A stretch of DNA of 5,527 nt from T1SED10-198M sp003554345 [NCBI: Candidatus Sumerlaeota bacterium] (GTDB lineage: Bacteria > Sumerlaeota > T1SED10-198M), in the NCBI GenBank assembly GCA_003554345.1, contig PWGE01000323.1:1-5527 (forward strand), in the 5' to 3' direction. Every line of letters begins with the position of its first letter. Within the stretch, counting starts at the first letter, position 1. Shown piece after piece: positions 1 to 5,337 of the stretch. The translations under genes were made by a program, and so were the position numbers. The notes below the pieces were generated by a model. The model ran no database searches and had not been told where the DNA came from. It saw only the letters and a program-made list of their open reading frames with translations.

Positions 1-2646
1 AGAACCATTTTTTGAGCCGACCAATCCCCCCACAGCACTATCTCCATTTACCGAGCCTGTCGCATAACAATATATTATTGCACCTGAATTTTGTCCCACT
101 AAACCCCCGATATCGCTTTCACCTGTCACGTCTACCCTCGTATAAATATTTGAAAGAGAGCTTTCTTCCTGATTACTCCCAACCAGTGCACCGACATTGC
201 TTTTTCCGGTGACTGCTCCCTCTACCAATGCCAGGTTTTGAATTTGAGCACCAGCCTCACAGGTGCCAAAAAGGCCGACATACTCTTCTTCAGGGCGATT
301 GATATGGAGTCCGCTGATAGAGTGTCCCTTGCCGTCAAACGTCCCCTGGAATGAATGTATCGGCTCAAATCCTTTGCCGTCATTCCACTCAGCAGTCTCC
401 GAAGCATCAATATTTGCTGTAAGAACATAATTCGCGTTGAGAGGATAAGTATAATCTTTGCCGATTTTCTGAAGATCTACGATGTGGCTGATGTAAACAG
501 GATCGGGCACCCTCACCATGTTCACGGAAAGAGGTAATGACCATTCAGATGTTTGGGTAGTATTTGCAGAACATCGAGTCTGTACGCGGACTGAATAGGT
601 TCCCGTTGAACTCCAGCTATGAGTAAAAGTAGAAGAACTGCTCCACTCTGAATAAAAGCCGTCACCCCAGTCAAATCGATATTCAACTTCTCCGCTACAG
701 GTGCAGGCACCTCCCTCTGCAGTATATTCGTAGCTATTATCAGTAATACCGGCTACTGTACCATCGGGAACCTCTGCCTTTGTTACCACATGAGGCAGAG
801 CTAACAGACGCAGTCCGATATTATTGTCAGTGTGAGCGGGATTATCAGAGTTGCGTGCTGCTGAACGGCATAATGCAGCAATACTGTCCCAGCTTCCACC
901 CCGCAAAACCCGCTCTGAAGCACGGGGAGAATTTACCCACGCAGAGCCATCACCGGGCGCTTCAGAATAATCAGAATGATAATCATCTTCACACCACTCC
1001 CATACATTGCCTGACATGTCAGACAGACCCCAGGCATTAGGAAGTTTCTGTCCAACTGGGTGCGCATATTCTCCTTCCCGGTTTTCCTGGTACCATGCAT
1101 AACTGGCAATTTCCACATAATCAGGATCATCTCCCCAATAAAAGCGGGTACTGGTATTTCCTCGTACAGCATATTCCCATTCTGCTTCAGCCGGCAGGCG
1201 AACATGAAAATTTTGTTCTGTATCTGCCAGATGAGCATTAAGGGTGTCAAGAAACCCGCCTTCTTCCCGAATATCGTTCCAGCTTACATGTGTTGCCGGC
1301 GAATCCGGATGATCCAGCACATTGTCTTCACCCTGCCAGGGTGCTGTTCCCATAACTGCTTCCCATTGGGCTCTGGTTACCGGATATTTCCCCAGGTGAA
1401 GCATTGACCAGGTTGTAGTATCAAATCGTGCCACACCGTGTCTTTCCAATAAAGCATAAACATTTCCCTCTTCATCTGATCGTAATACCGCGGTCCCATT
1501 CCACCATCCCTCATCTCTTTCGGGATTAAACTCAAAGGGTTCCGATTCAGATATCTTGTTTCCAGAAAGGTCCCAGATAACAATACGTTGATTATGATGA
1601 GTAACATCTCCGTCAATATTTCTTGCCAGTCCTATGGTATACACTATCCCTTTTTCTTCATCAATCTTAAAAGCTGCTATTCGTGGCGGGTTGTAAGCGG
1701 CTGACAGGTCAAAAGCAGTATCTTCTATCGGTGCCCCGGTAGGATCAAATTTCTGAAAAGGAATATCTTCCCTTGTACTGCTTCTCCAGAAAGTGCCGTC
1801 ATCATTTAAATGAAGATCCATCGCCTGGACTTTTTCATTGAGTATGGTGCCTGTCCATTCCCCATCAGTTTTCTCAATGAGAATGGGACGGGTATCTTCC
1901 TGGTTTCCTGATACGAGAATTCTTGTGTCATCACCGGTTCCCCGTACTGTTAATGCATCTCCTAAACGCATTCTTGGTATATCGCTGAAGTCATTTTCGT
2001 AAATTAACTCGGGATCAGCATCTATATCTGCCCAGCGATACACTTTAAAGTTTCCCAATAATACAGGATCCGGCTCATCCAGTACTTCTTCGTCGTGAAT
2101 AACCAGGTTTGTAGAATATAAAGCGCCATCTGCAGAGAACATTATACGGTTGATCCCAAAGTTTTTTTGTTGAATACCTTCCAACGACAGAGACATACCT
2201 GTTAATTCACTGCCGTCTTCAATGGAAAAGAAGGTAACTTCCGGTATGTTTTTATGCACAACAAGCAGGTAATCATCATAAACAGCAAGCCCCCGAAACT
2301 GATCCTTGTCAAAACCTTCCGGAAACGGCTCGGATCCTTCTTCTGCCAGAATCATACCGCAGGGGTCTTCCCAGATTTTTGTAGCCGTAAAATGAAAGTC
2401 AGTCCCGATATTAACTTCATGTTGTGGCTCTTCATCAGCATAGCTGTCCTGTTCCCCTGGATAGCGTCCCATCATGAAACCACCTCTGGGAATTTGAGAA
2501 AGTTCCATTTCTATATCATCAGGAAGTAAAATCGCATTTTCTCCCGGTCTTTCATATCCGTTGTTATCATTTGTTTCTCCAAAGGCAAATAAAAACATGC
2601 CAGCAAAAAAAGCTAATACAAAAAAACTTAATATGTTGCTTTTCAT
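1..2646 (-). CDS. Exported multidomain protein: FGE-sulfatase (SUMF1) fold split by a large insert, PKD-like domain, GLUG repeats (C-terminus cut off)
   Basis: I translated the minus strand base by base: 882 codons are open from the ATG at 2646-2644 to the window edge, with no stop. AGGG lies 7 bases before the ATG. Residues 1-23 form a signal peptide (Lys2, a long hydrophobic run, AFG before a likely cleavage site) with no lipobox cysteine, so the protein is probably exported. Residues 52-86 begin an FGE-sulfatase domain (GGFMMG, then EEPQHEV). Residues 87-415 are foreign beta-rich sequence. The FGE domain resumes at 416 with LGKYPVTRAQWEAVMG, then RLPAEAEWEYA (483), MSGNVWEWCEDD (544), RVLRGGSW (579) and NIGLRL (609). 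A PKD-like domain follows at about 622-714 (FDWGDG at 658, then THSWSSTGTYSV). GLUG sequence runs from about 717 (FDGKGHSISGLHI, VGLFG, VGALVG, IGGLVG, VGGLVG). Both catalytic cysteines of true formylglycine-generating enzyme appear absent, so a binding or structural surface role is likelier than sulfatase activation. Function is otherwise unknown. Confidence 0.9.
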   Translation of the reverse strand, partial: MKSNILSFFVLAFFAGMFLFAFGETNDNNGYERPGENAILLPDDIEMELSQIPRGGFMMGRYPGEQDSYADEEPQHEVNIGTDFHFTATKIWEDPCGMILAEEGSEPFPEGFDKDQFRGLAVYDDYLLVVHKNIPEVTFFSIEDGSELTGMSLSLEGIQQKNFGINRIMFSADGALYSTNLVIHDEEVLDEPDPVLLGNFKVYRWADIDADPELIYENDFSDIPRMRLGDALTVRGTGDDTRILVSGNQEDTRPILIEKTDGEWTGTILNEKVQAMDLHLNDDGTFWRSSTREDIPFQKFDPTGAPIEDTAFDLSAAYNPPRIAAFKIDEEKGIVYTIGLARNIDGDVTHHNQRIVIWDLSGNKISESEPFEFNPERDEGWWNGTAVLRSDEEGNVYALLERHGVARFDTTTWSMLHLGKYPVTRAQWEAVMGTAPWQGEDNVLDHPDSPATHVSWNDIREEGGFLDTLNAHLADTEQNFHVRLPAEAEWEYAVRGNTSTRFYWGDDPDYVEIASYAWYQENREGEYAHPVGQKLPNAWGLSDMSGNVWEWCEDDYHSDYSEAPGDGSAWVNSPRASERVLRGGSWDSIAALCRSAARNSDNPAHTDNNIGLRLLALPHVVTKAEVPDGTVAGITDNSYEYTAEGGACTCSGEVEYRFDWGDGFYSEWSSSSTFTHSWSSTGTYSVRVQTRCSANTTQTSEWSLPLSVNMVRVPDPVYISHIVDLQKIGKDYTYPLNANYVLTANIDASETAEWNDGKGFEPIHSFQGTFDGKGHSISGLHINRPEEEYVGLFGTCEAGAQIQNLALVEGAVTGKSNVGALVGSNQEESSLSNIYTRVDVTGESDIGGLVGQNSGAIIYCYATGSVNGDSAVGGLVGSKNGS
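1402..2388 (-). other. Insert of about 329 residues inside the FGE-sulfatase domain, beta-propeller-like or DUF4623-like
   Basis: This stretch encodes residues 87-415 of the minus-strand protein and separates the FGE-domain start (ending DFHF) from its continuation (LHLGKYPVT). It contains short beta-type units with recurring DG turns, for example LAVYDDYLLVV, SADGALYSTNL, FKVYRWADIDADPELIY, GDALTVRGTGDDTRILVSG, LNDDGTFWRSS, EEKGIVYTIGLAR and DEEGNVYALLERHGVARFD. That pattern resembles a beta-propeller. The VYRW and RGTGDDTRI segments remind me of the DUF4623 family, but I cannot confirm this without a profile search. No catalytic motif is recognisable. The reading frame continues cleanly across both edges. 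The boundaries are approximate to a few residues. Confidence 0.6.
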
Positions 2647-3085: not shown

Positions 3086-3117
3086 TTGCCCACATTTTTT
3101 CATTAACATGATAGAAT
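3086..3117 (+). promoter_or_regulatory. Weak candidate promoter just upstream of the hydrolase gene
   Basis: TAGAAT at 3112-3117 matches the -10 consensus at 5 of 6 positions. The nearest -35-like hexamer, TTGCCC at 3086-3091, is 20 bases upstream, longer than the preferred 16-18. If used, transcription would begin near 3124, downstream of the ATG at 3116 and upstream of the one at 3152, which agrees with the chosen start. Confidence 0.2.
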
Positions 3118-3138
3118 GGTGCCAGGAATTATAATAAC

Positions 3139-3143
3139 AGGGA
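3139..3143 (+). promoter_or_regulatory. Ribosome binding site deciding the hydrolase start at 3152
   Basis: AGGGA lies 8 bases before ATG 3152. The in-frame upstream ATG at 3116 has no purine-rich Shine-Dalgarno sequence and would add 12 residues before the conserved N-terminus of the family. The start at 3152 is therefore preferred. Confidence 0.6.
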
Positions 3144-3151
3144 CAAAAACC

Positions 3152-4069
3152 ATGTCTTCACTGGAAAGATTTCGGGGAACGCTTCTTGGTCTGGCAGCGG
3201 GGGATGCCCTCGGTACGACGGTGGAATTTTCACCCCGGGGAAGCTTTGATCCTTTAACCGACATGGTCGGCGGCGGTCCTTTTGACCTCGAACCAGGCCA
3301 ATGGACAGACGATACTTCTATGGCACTGTGCCTGGCAACAAGTTTACTGGAATGCAACTCGTTTAATGCGCAGGATCAGATGGAACATTACTGCCGCTGG
3401 GCAGAAACAGGATATCTCAGCTGTACCACCGGACCTGCCTTTGATATTGGAGGAACTGTTGTAGCCGCCCTTGAAAAGTACAAGAAAAGCGGTAACCCTT
3501 ATGCAGGTTCCAGTGACCCCTATTCAGCAGGAAACGGGTGTATCATGAGGCTTGCACCCGTTCCCATGTTTTTCTTTCCCGACCAGGATAAAGTGGAAAA
3601 ATATGCTGTTAAAAGTTCCCAGACCACGCACGCCACCAGGGAATGCATAGATGCCTGCCGCCTGTTTGGAAGAATGATCTGCCGCGCTCTTCTGGGCTAT
3701 TCTAAAAAGGAAGTTGCAATCGGTGATAGCGATAGTTTTAAGGGTGCTCCCGCGATTATGAGCATAGCCCAGGGAAAGTACCTCAAAAAAGAAAAAGAAA
3801 ATATCCGCGGGTCAGGATATGTTGTTGAGAGCCTGGAAGCTGCCCTGTGGTGTTTCATGAAAACAGACAGTTACAGGGAGGCCATTCTGTCGGCAGCCAA
3901 CCTGGGTGATGATGCAGATACTACGGCAGCAGTATGCGGCCAGGTTGCCGGAGCTTATTACGGTGTATCAGGCATACCTTCTGACTGGCTCGATAAGCTG
4001 GCGATGAGGCAAGAAATAACACAAATTGCCGATGGGTTGTATGAAAGGCAGGCGGGTACGGATTCTTAA
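3152..4069 (+). CDS. ADP-ribosylglycohydrolase family protein (DraG/ARH fold)
   Basis: This encodes a complete 305-residue protein, about the usual length of the DraG family. These enzymes use two metal ions, usually magnesium, to cut ADP-ribose from modified amino-acid side chains, or act on related ADP-ribose compounds. Family hallmarks are in order: RFRGTLLGLAAGDALG at 6-21, the metal-binding WTDDTSMAL at 51-59, GNGCIMRLAPVP at 128-139, TTHATRECIDACRLF at 158-172, and the second metal cluster GDDADTTAAVCGQVAGAYYG at 252-271. All recognised metal ligands (Thr52, Asp53, Asp54, Asp254, Asp256, Thr257) are present, so it should be active. There is no signal peptide, so it is cytoplasmic. No ADP-ribosyltransferase or nitrogenase-related gene is adjacent, so its substrate is unknown and a draG symbol is not justified. 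It is transcribed in the same direction as the GLUG gene downstream, 182 bases away. Confidence 0.93.
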   Translation: MSSLERFRGTLLGLAAGDALGTTVEFSPRGSFDPLTDMVGGGPFDLEPGQWTDDTSMALCLATSLLECNSFNAQDQMEHYCRWAETGYLSCTTGPAFDIGGTVVAALEKYKKSGNPYAGSSDPYSAGNGCIMRLAPVPMFFFPDQDKVEKYAVKSSQTTHATRECIDACRLFGRMICRALLGYSKKEVAIGDSDSFKGAPAIMSIAQGKYLKKEKENIRGSGYVVESLEAALWCFMKTDSYREAILSAANLGDDADTTAAVCGQVAGAYYGVSGIPSDWLDKLAMRQEITQIADGLYERQAGTDS

Positions 4070-4251: not shown

Positions 4252-5337
4252 ATGCTTTTTAAGCATAATGTTTTTTTATTTTCATTCATTTTTGTATCTG
4301 CCCTGGCTCATATAATCACCGCAGGAGGCGGATTTGATGAAGGACAGGGGACAGAAGATGACCCGTATCAGGTCTCCACAGCCGAACACCTGAATAATGT
4401 CAGGGAACATCTGAATGCCTGTTTCATACAAAAAAGCGACATTAGTCTGACTGATTTTGCCAGCGAAGAAGGGTGGGAGCCTATAGGAGATGAATCCAAC
4501 CCTTTTACCGGTAATTATGATGGCAATGACAAAACGATCAGCGAACTGGTTATCAACAGGCAGGAAGAAGATCATGTGGGATTATTCGGCTATGCAGAGA
4601 ATGCAGAACTGGTCAATATAACAATTAAAAATGCAAACGTGCAGGGACATAATCATGCCGGAGGACTGGCAGGAAGACTTGCTGATAACAGTACCATCAG
4701 CGGGAGCCACATCAAAGCTGAGGTATACGCTGATGAGTACTATGCCGGCGGATTGGCAGGTTCAATCCAGGGCGGTTCTATTTTTCAATGTTCCAGTAAC
4801 AGCGAGGTCGAAGCCGGAATTAACCGAGCCGGAGGTATCGTGGGAAGCAGTACAGGCACCGTTGAACAGACCTACAGTAAAGGAGTCATCATGGCAAGCG
4901 GTTCACCAACACGAGCCGGAGGATTAATTGGAAAGAATGAAAGTGGCGGCGACATTGTCAATTGTTATTCCCACGCCGATGTTCATGCTGATGGCACAGC
5001 CAGCGGGGGGCTTGTTGGTCTGAACTGGGGAGACATTCAACATTCATATGCTGCTGGTCATGTTTCATCTGAAGAAAGTGATACTGGCGGATTGGTAGGT
5101 TCAAATAGAGGCTTCGTAGAAGGTTCATATTATGATAAAGACACCACCGGGCAGGATGATGATATGTGGAAGGGAGAACCCCGTTCCACAGCTGAGATGA
5201 AAGATGAAACGACTTTTACAGGATGGGACTTTGCTGAAAAGTGGGAAATATCAGAACCGAACTCAGAGATGGAAGGGTATCCGGTATTAAGCTGGCAGGA
5301 AGTTCCGAACAGTATCAGGGACTGGCTCAACTATTAA
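4252..5337 (+). CDS. Exported GLUG-repeat protein
   Basis: This encodes a complete protein of 361 residues. Residues 1-24 are a signal peptide (Lys4, hydrophobic core, possible cleavage after ALA at 19 or ITA at 24), so it is exported. After a short acidic segment (GTEDDPYQVSTAEHL), residues 72-113 show the usual lead-in to GLUG arrays (WEPIG, then F-TGNYDG, INRQEEDHVGLFG). Six GLUG-type units follow, starting at residues 136, 165, 193, 222, 251 and 278 with AGGLAG, AGGLAG, AGGIVG, AGGLIG, SGGLVG and TGGLVG, about 28 residues apart. The end has the typical closing motif: GSYYDKDTTGQ (291-301), TAEMKDETTFTGWDF (313-327), W-EI and YPVLSW. GLUG arrays are thought to form beta-solenoid surface structures, in some proteins linked to adhesion; no enzymatic domain, LPXTG motif or C-terminal sorting domain is visible. 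The protein is visibly acidic. It resembles the GLUG part of the minus-strand gene (NRPEEEYVGLFG against NRQEEDHVGLFG). Confidence 0.9.
   Translation: MLFKHNVFLFSFIFVSALAHIITAGGGFDEGQGTEDDPYQVSTAEHLNNVREHLNACFIQKSDISLTDFASEEGWEPIGDESNPFTGNYDGNDKTISELVINRQEEDHVGLFGYAENAELVNITIKNANVQGHNHAGGLAGRLADNSTISGSHIKAEVYADEYYAGGLAGSIQGGSIFQCSSNSEVEAGINRAGGIVGSSTGTVEQTYSKGVIMASGSPTRAGGLIGKNESGGDIVNCYSHADVHADGTASGGLVGLNWGDIQHSYAAGHVSSEESDTGGLVGSNRGFVEGSYYDKDTTGQDDDMWKGEPRSTAEMKDETTFTGWDFAEKWEISEPNSEMEGYPVLSWQEVPNSIRDWLNY

Follow-up and report, generated by a model that had tools for sequence, protein, structure and literature searches.

An 882-residue protein of a Sumerlaeota bacterium carries an FGE-sulfatase domain in two pieces: residues 41–85 and 416–615 are one FGE domain, parted by 330 residues. 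The parting segment is, by structure prediction and profile comparison, a β-propeller related to DUF4623. We consider it likely that this propeller sits in the N-terminal hairpin of the FGE domain, with a PKD-like domain and a GLUG region after it, that the host serves as a two-ended mount, and that the arrangement arose by recombination.

The stretch of DNA analysed (the window) is contig C97, 5,527 bases, of a 2.55 Mb MAG in 454 contigs (87.7% complete, 4.3% contamination) that belongs to the phylum Sumerlaeota/BRC1 and is rich in paralogous repeat proteins. We refer to this genome as G000; contigs C223, C428, C381, C336, C307, C74, C87 and C12 are also part of it. Among the 60 relatives searched, the nearest to the source genome are related at the level of the phylum, and none is closer. 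The gene lies on the minus strand, and its frame is free of stops from position 2646 to position 1, as the preliminary description had stated (Table 1). Downstream of the FGE domain, PF00801 scored slightly above its cut-off over residues 652–689 (E = 3.3e-5) and PF18911 under its cut-off over residues 651–698 (E = 0.0023), while residues 737–882 matched Glug (E = 1e-5) and, under its cut-off, M26_N (E = 0.0089). PKD and GLUG are modules frequent in surface or secreted proteins, and by its predicted signal peptide and module content the nested protein is probably secreted. Genes for an ADP-ribosylglycohydrolase and a second GLUG protein adjoin it.

Table 1. Features of the window, and contigs of the source genome that carry the C-terminal motif
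Feature	Position	Strand	Basis or remark
Nested-protein gene	1..2646	-	882 aa, ATG at 2646, open at contig end
Probable Sec signal peptide, aa 1–23	2578..2646	-	hydrophobic stretch, by eye
FGE-sulfatase N-terminal piece, aa 41–85	2392..2526	-	profile match; AF2 pLDDT 75–92 by blocks to about aa 82
DUF4623-like β-propeller (predicted), nested, aa 86–415	1402..2391	-	profile, AF2 model, structure comparison
FGE-sulfatase C-terminal piece, aa 416–615	802..1401	-	Pfam, 18-row profile, AF2, structure alignment
PKD-like domain, aa 651–698	553..696	-	PF00801 and PF18911
GLUG / M26_N-like repeat region, aa 737–882	1..438	-	truncated by contig end
ADP-ribosylglycohydrolase gene	3116–4069	+	Pfam E = 2e-80
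Second GLUG protein gene	4252–5337	+	Pfam E = 3e-17
WHLF[KE] carriers	contigs C381, C336, C223, C87, C307, C12 (loci L178–L183)		G000

One FGE-sulfatase domain in two pieces

Pfam reports the FGE-sulfatase family (PF03781) for residues 409–615 only, where the match begins only at position 30 of a 255-position profile, and the score of 136.3 bits against a curated cut-off of 23.3 places the C-terminal piece in the family. A second profile was built from 18 uninterrupted FGE homologues of viral contigs, with the window left out; these rows were chosen out of 20 distinct ones among 46 FGE domains found, leaving out L110:76 (a near-duplicate region) and L102 (whose N-terminal part is atypical). 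This profile matched the window protein in two pieces, residues 41–91 (profile 5–54 of 234) and 415–615 (profile 46–231), which bears out the split by about 330 residues proposed in the preliminary description. On its own the N-terminal piece (residues 24–95) scored 32.4 bits with the 18-row profile (E = 5e-12), against a best of 3.5 bits for its shuffled versions (667 scored out of 1000 shuffles), and the 45-residue piece alone matched no Pfam family at E ≤ 0.1. The insert region holds no residues in any of the 18 homologues, in which the two flanking strands (H.V.[VIL] and a strand into KYPVT or similar) are joined by 2–3 residues; without its insert the host thus looks like a normal domain, as had been expected.

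The best match of both FGE pieces, among 24 FGE domains compared (four of the own genome and 20 viral, a partial one on C74 being left out), is the uninterrupted FGE of C223, with scores of 138 versus 87 for the next in the N-terminal piece and 746 versus 466 in the C-terminal piece. Identities with C223 amount to 27 of 44 and 132 of 197 residues, respectively, and the conserved FGE columns are retained, so that both halves do keep the family consensus. Given a host that is contiguous in 18 homologues and an insert whose relatives stand alone (L076) or in a linker on C223, the insert qualifies as a nested domain. Catalytic positions were taken from an alignment to human FGE 2aft, itself a C336S mutant. 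At C336 and C341 of the human enzyme, which we take to be the catalytic cysteines, the window protein has serine and cysteine, respectively; as the 336 position in this alignment is a serine, formylglycine-forming activity of the nested protein appears unlikely.

Since mixed alignments for one model misplaced rows, the FGE domain and the propeller were predicted apart. In the AF2 model of residues 24–620, made with the 18 FGE rows, the FGE pieces reach mostly pLDDT 75–96 by blocks, with three blocks of the C-terminal piece at 58–69, and the insert, whose homologues are absent from that alignment, is poorly predicted (blocks 31–69). Strands at residues 76–79 and 415–419 flank the insert, which therefore lies in a strand-turn-strand hairpin. 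VIA-align superposed this model on TvpA (2y3c) with Z = 29.6 over 231 residues (rmsd 2.5), on PvdO (5hha) with Z = 29.2 and on human FGE with Z of about 24. The alignments to 2y3c and 5hha run from model residue 12–13 to 595, across both FGE pieces, and the predicted model thereby contains the complete FGE fold, N-terminal hairpin included. The rigid alignment of the same model by Foldseek was poorer, with 2y3c first (E = 3e-14, rmsd 13.2). AF2 thus builds a single FGE fold out of both pieces and places the insert within the hairpin, in keeping with the single fold and the large domain nested in an FGE/C-type-lectin hairpin that the preliminary description had envisaged; as alignment rows that lack the insert favour the rebuilding of an FGE domain, the model shows compatibility and is not independent proof.

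A predicted DUF4623-like propeller

Against Pfam the insert gave no family at E ≤ 0.1 and stayed below the curated cut-off of DUF4623 (PF15416). Its own AF2 model, made with three sequences, has a pLDDT of 71.6 and a pTM of 0.79, and the top Foldseek match of this model is the DUF4623 protein 4ftd (E = 1.2e-11, TM 0.60 by query length), to which VIA aligned it over 287 residues with Z = 22.6 and rmsd 3.2; NHL propellers reached Z values of up to 23.5. The predicted model has the propeller fold of 4ftd. When seven DUF4623-like proteins that stand alone in genomes of the phylum were made into a profile, it recognised insert residues 19–183, its first half, at E = 6e-23, and 4ftd was the sole PDB sequence match of the five-row insert profile A2 at E < 0.1 (E = 0.0073). 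These structural and profile matches support the suggestion, made from the letters of the window alone, that the insert could form a propeller, and they relate this propeller to DUF4623.

Relatives of the insert were found in its own genome on C223 (56%), on C428 (43%) and, as a partial copy, on C307 (35%). The 56% propeller of C223 lies downstream of the complete FGE and outside it, in an ordinary linker between two PKDs. The same C223 protein (L059) matches dockerin (E = 2e-8) and cohesin (E = 6e-19) at residues 1135–1345, toward its end. In other Sumerlaeota, a 364-residue relative stands alone (L076/L011, G012) and another opens the protein of L075/L012 (G014); L075 and L076 are GTDB-contig records (candidate division BRC1, Candidatus Sumerlaeota) with the same proteins as L012 and L011. 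A first scan of GTDB contigs for insert relatives gave none, and a second scan with five sequences gave two, both from BRC1/Sumerlaeota. The insert protein had matches in 11 of 61 genomes, and insert profile A1 in three of 40 genomes of the phylum at E ≤ 1e-10 (G000, G012 and G014).

Propellers within PKD domains

A PKD profile was built from 12 intact PKDs of the own genome and run on 12 of 13 regions of G000. The insert relative on C428 lies within a PKD, of which residues 376–414 match profile 2–40 of 80 and, after 332 residues, 747–780 match profile 42–77. A second PKD on C428 ends at profile 41, and the sequence from there to the contig end matches PQQ_2 below the threshold (E = 0.0009). 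On C381, two PKDs are split at profile 39–41 by kelch propellers of 301 and 299 residues and the C-terminal half of a third stands near the contig start, and on C336 a C-terminal PKD part (profile 29–79) comes after kelch repeats. The regions scanned hold, in all, three complete PKD splits and three cut by contig ends, along with 16 PKDs that run without interruption and another that is cut at profile 60. By these profile matches, PKDs of this genome are split at one loop both by the insert's propeller family and by kelch propellers.

When the kelch-in-PKD arrangement was used as a query against 386 genomes, 11 had a match at E ≤ 1e-20. Only in the source genome, on C381, did a match cover both PKD halves; the start of C381 and C336 matched over the C-terminal half, and no match of another genome extends past query position 360, which is about 21 residues into the C-terminal half at the most. 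Run on the loci from this search (four rows without a locus being left out), the PKD profile found split PKDs only on C381.

The PKD matches listed from the 40 phylum genomes led, among those listed, to two long proteins. The first (G030:C745, 2,891 residues) has a DUF4623-like propeller (E = 6e-17), an F5/8C domain (E = 4e-11) and one more stretch without a Pfam name between PKD halves; the second (G014:C1, 3,263 residues) has a propeller (E = 7e-11) and a tested F5/8C domain (E = 3e-9) between PKD halves, with a second F5/8C domain, by eye, and an unnamed stretch likewise nested. With the own-genome profile these PKD halves are weak singly (E = 0.016–0.43), and for the G014 propeller only the N half matched (E = 0.3); PF18911 supports the C halves better (G030, profile 46–80, E = 9e-7; G014, 48–80, E = 6e-4), and the remaining assignments of PKD halves were read by eye. 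Only the seven-protein profile recognised the two nested propellers, for which insert profiles A1 and A2 gave a best E of 0.012, and Pfam gave only a sub-threshold Lactonase match on that of G030 (E = 0.0084). The PKD-propeller-PKD units of G030 and G014 align in one piece over 2–370 of 371 residues at 39% identity, and the G030 unit had no match at E ≤ 1e-6 in the rest of the 40 genomes, G000 included. As the unit is conserved in two genomes, such nests are inherited and are not the product of one assembly. PKD-like rows that end near profile 40 on G004:C2, G029:C167, G016:C73 and G017:C15 were also read, and by eye have no propeller-sized nest.

The lack of the window's own arrangement in related genomes, which the preliminary description had raised as a point against it, thus holds in part: a second nested FGE appeared in none of the FGE matches listed, which reach about E = 5e-39 (the window's own is 1.1e-38), but the propeller family is nested in another host domain, the PKD, in G000 and, by the broader seven-protein profile, in G030 and G014. 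Among the FGE rows listed, four begin at profile 22 or beyond (G031:C77 has two, G038:C20 and G024:C112 have one each), and none of these is nested. Similar nesting of further domains in the bacterium itself and in two distant relatives suggests that this lineage habitually assembles its surface proteins in this way.

Several apparently secreted proteins of G000 have a common C-terminal end, WHLF[KE] before the stop (Table 1). The pattern had six DNA matches, all six of them ORF ends, against none for the reversed control pattern. Ends of the form DW.L[FYIM] occur in other Sumerlaeota, the motif loci including L013, L016, L018, L021, L022, L075 and L076, and W.L[FYIML] plus up to three residues ends 14 of 109 open frames of at least 250 residues in the loci examined, which are not all genes. 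This motif may be a sorting or secretion tag.

Origin, function and relation to known domain insertions

On C223 an FGE of this type and a propeller of this family stand next to each other in one protein, and we propose that the nest arose when paralogous modular genes of this sort recombined. Codon usage of the insert is not different from that of residues 416–882 (p = 0.55), and third-position G+C is alike in the insert (36.3%) and the FGE C-terminal piece (37.6%); overall G+C is 42.9% in the insert, 44.2% and 49.8% in the N- and C-terminal FGE pieces and 46.4% in the remainder. Relative to C223, DNA identity is 61% in the N-terminal piece, 62% in the propeller and 71% in the C-terminal piece, and third-position identity is 36, 42 and 59%, respectively; at such low identity, the parts diverged long ago. 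The similar insert edges (FHF and LHL), which the preliminary description had noted as a possible clue to origin, are present: prolonging the N-terminal piece across the left edge raised its score from 28.7 to 32.2 bits, the overlap of the two FGE pieces at profile 46–54 is this same similarity, and left-edge HFTAT resembles the C223 FGE strand (FTVT) with p = 0.013 in a post-hoc test. With a gain of about 3.5 bits the likeness remains a weak hint of a short duplication.

Two other parts of the C-terminal piece stand out in the comparison with C223. Window positions 1261–1350 (residues 433–462) have 87–96% DNA identity to the C223 FGE, against about 70% in the remaining piece, and the DNA search gave 87% over 101 bases for this patch, a pattern that resembles gene conversion involving both FGE copies. 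At its C-terminal end (window 802–897, residues 584–615) the FGE domain is most diverged from C223, with 44–49% DNA identity at residues 584–613; this is where proteins of diversity-generating retroelements (DGRs) have their variable region. A reverse transcriptase (RVT_1) had no match in the MAG, which is 87.7% complete, and a DGR was dropped as the cause of the insert.

An assembler that joined unrelated or paralogous genes could also have produced the split frame, all the more so in an incomplete MAG of 454 contigs with some contamination and many paralogous repeat proteins, and the unequal G+C of insert and C-terminal FGE piece would agree with this. Both junctions, however, keep the reading frame and fall at a single turn of the host, C223 is the nearest paralogue of either FGE piece, and when window positions 1300–2500 were compared as DNA with the source genome, the matches apart from the window were diverged pieces of C223 alone (87% over 101 bases, 65% and 71%), with no source copy found. 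The low third-position identities with C223 in all three parts also speak against a chimera, as do the nesting of this propeller family within a PKD of C428 and the PKD-propeller unit kept between G030 and G014; we regard an assembly artefact as quite improbable. That the insertion broke the host, leaving its C-terminal part as a relic beside a propeller that alone matters, is conceivable in that 330 residues in a tight hairpin could hinder folding, but it is unlikely given the consensus retained in both pieces, the lack of a stop or frameshift, and the FGE fold that AF2 predicts.

A third reading would have the insert excise like an intein, or be cut out, to release the propeller and a restored FGE domain, and the site within a conserved domain and the normal look of the host without its insert are intein-like. 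The insert, though, is a predicted β-propeller with a stand-alone relative, its family also occupies the ordinary linker between PKDs on C223, and no intein or endonuclease family was found by Pfam in the protein at E ≤ 1, so that splicing or processing seems very unlikely indeed. On the preferred reading of a nested domain, the first and last strands of the propeller would meet, which would fit it to a tight turn and allow the host to close around it. The FGE domain would then be a two-ended mount that keeps the propeller rigid beside a lectin-like ligand-binding face, and the result would be one module with two binding surfaces. The most likely role of the FGE-type domain is that of a putative ligand-binding lectin-like module, with the nested propeller as a second binding surface held rigidly. 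A more general scheme, which we put forward tentatively, is that in Sumerlaeota fixed loops of small carriers (in PKD the turn that follows W.FGDG, in FGE-type lectin-like domains the N-terminal hairpin) could be sockets for interchangeable whole domains (DUF4623-like and kelch propellers, F5/8C and others), surface proteins diversifying by swaps of nested cassettes as well as by end-to-end additions.

A PKD of 80 residues carries unrelated inserts about four times larger at one same loop. Such natural instances of tolerant insertion sites are of use to protein engineering, and they bear on the evolution of large secreted modular proteins in uncultured phyla. End-to-end domain annotation may hide nests of this kind: here Pfam gave the FGE domain as truncated and the insert as nothing. 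We found no description of nested or discontinuous PKD domains, kelch or β-propeller inserts included, in the open-licence literature, which does not prove absence. The main text of a Sumerlaeota paper (PMC8092238) contains none of the words PKD, propeller, dockerin or adhesion, and that of a domain-insertion survey (PMC13114784) none of PKD, propeller or sulfatase. According to that survey, inserts fold independently with termini close together, and in 77% of events the insert is the smaller partner (median 115 residues, against 199 for the host) (PMC13114784). The A1-B-A2 topology is as in the survey, but here inserts of about 300–330 residues occupy an 80-residue PKD and a 245-residue FGE (PMC13114784).

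The propeller fold is shared with DUF4623 (PF15416; 4ftd), from which the window insert differs in matching no Pfam family at the threshold used and in lying inside another domain. In the integrin β chains of eukaryotes, a β-I domain is inserted in an Ig-like hybrid domain; a large domain in an Ig-like carrier is common to both cases, whereas the domains are unrelated and the loop is different. The host shares the FGE-subtype fold of the DGR proteins TvpA, TaqVP and Mtd (2y3c, Z = 29.6; 5vf4, Z = 14.1; 1yu0, Z = 12.6), AvpA being of another subtype. C-type-lectin folds of DGR proteins are described, in the sections consulted, as carrying inserts between core elements (PMC6328139, PMC5006420); where their extent is given, for TaqVP and AvpA, the inserts range from 17 to 89 residues and fall between elements later in the core, and those of AvpA are described as unlike any known structure (PMC5006420, PMC6328139). 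The insert of the window, by comparison, has 330 residues, makes up a complete known fold and comes before the first helix.
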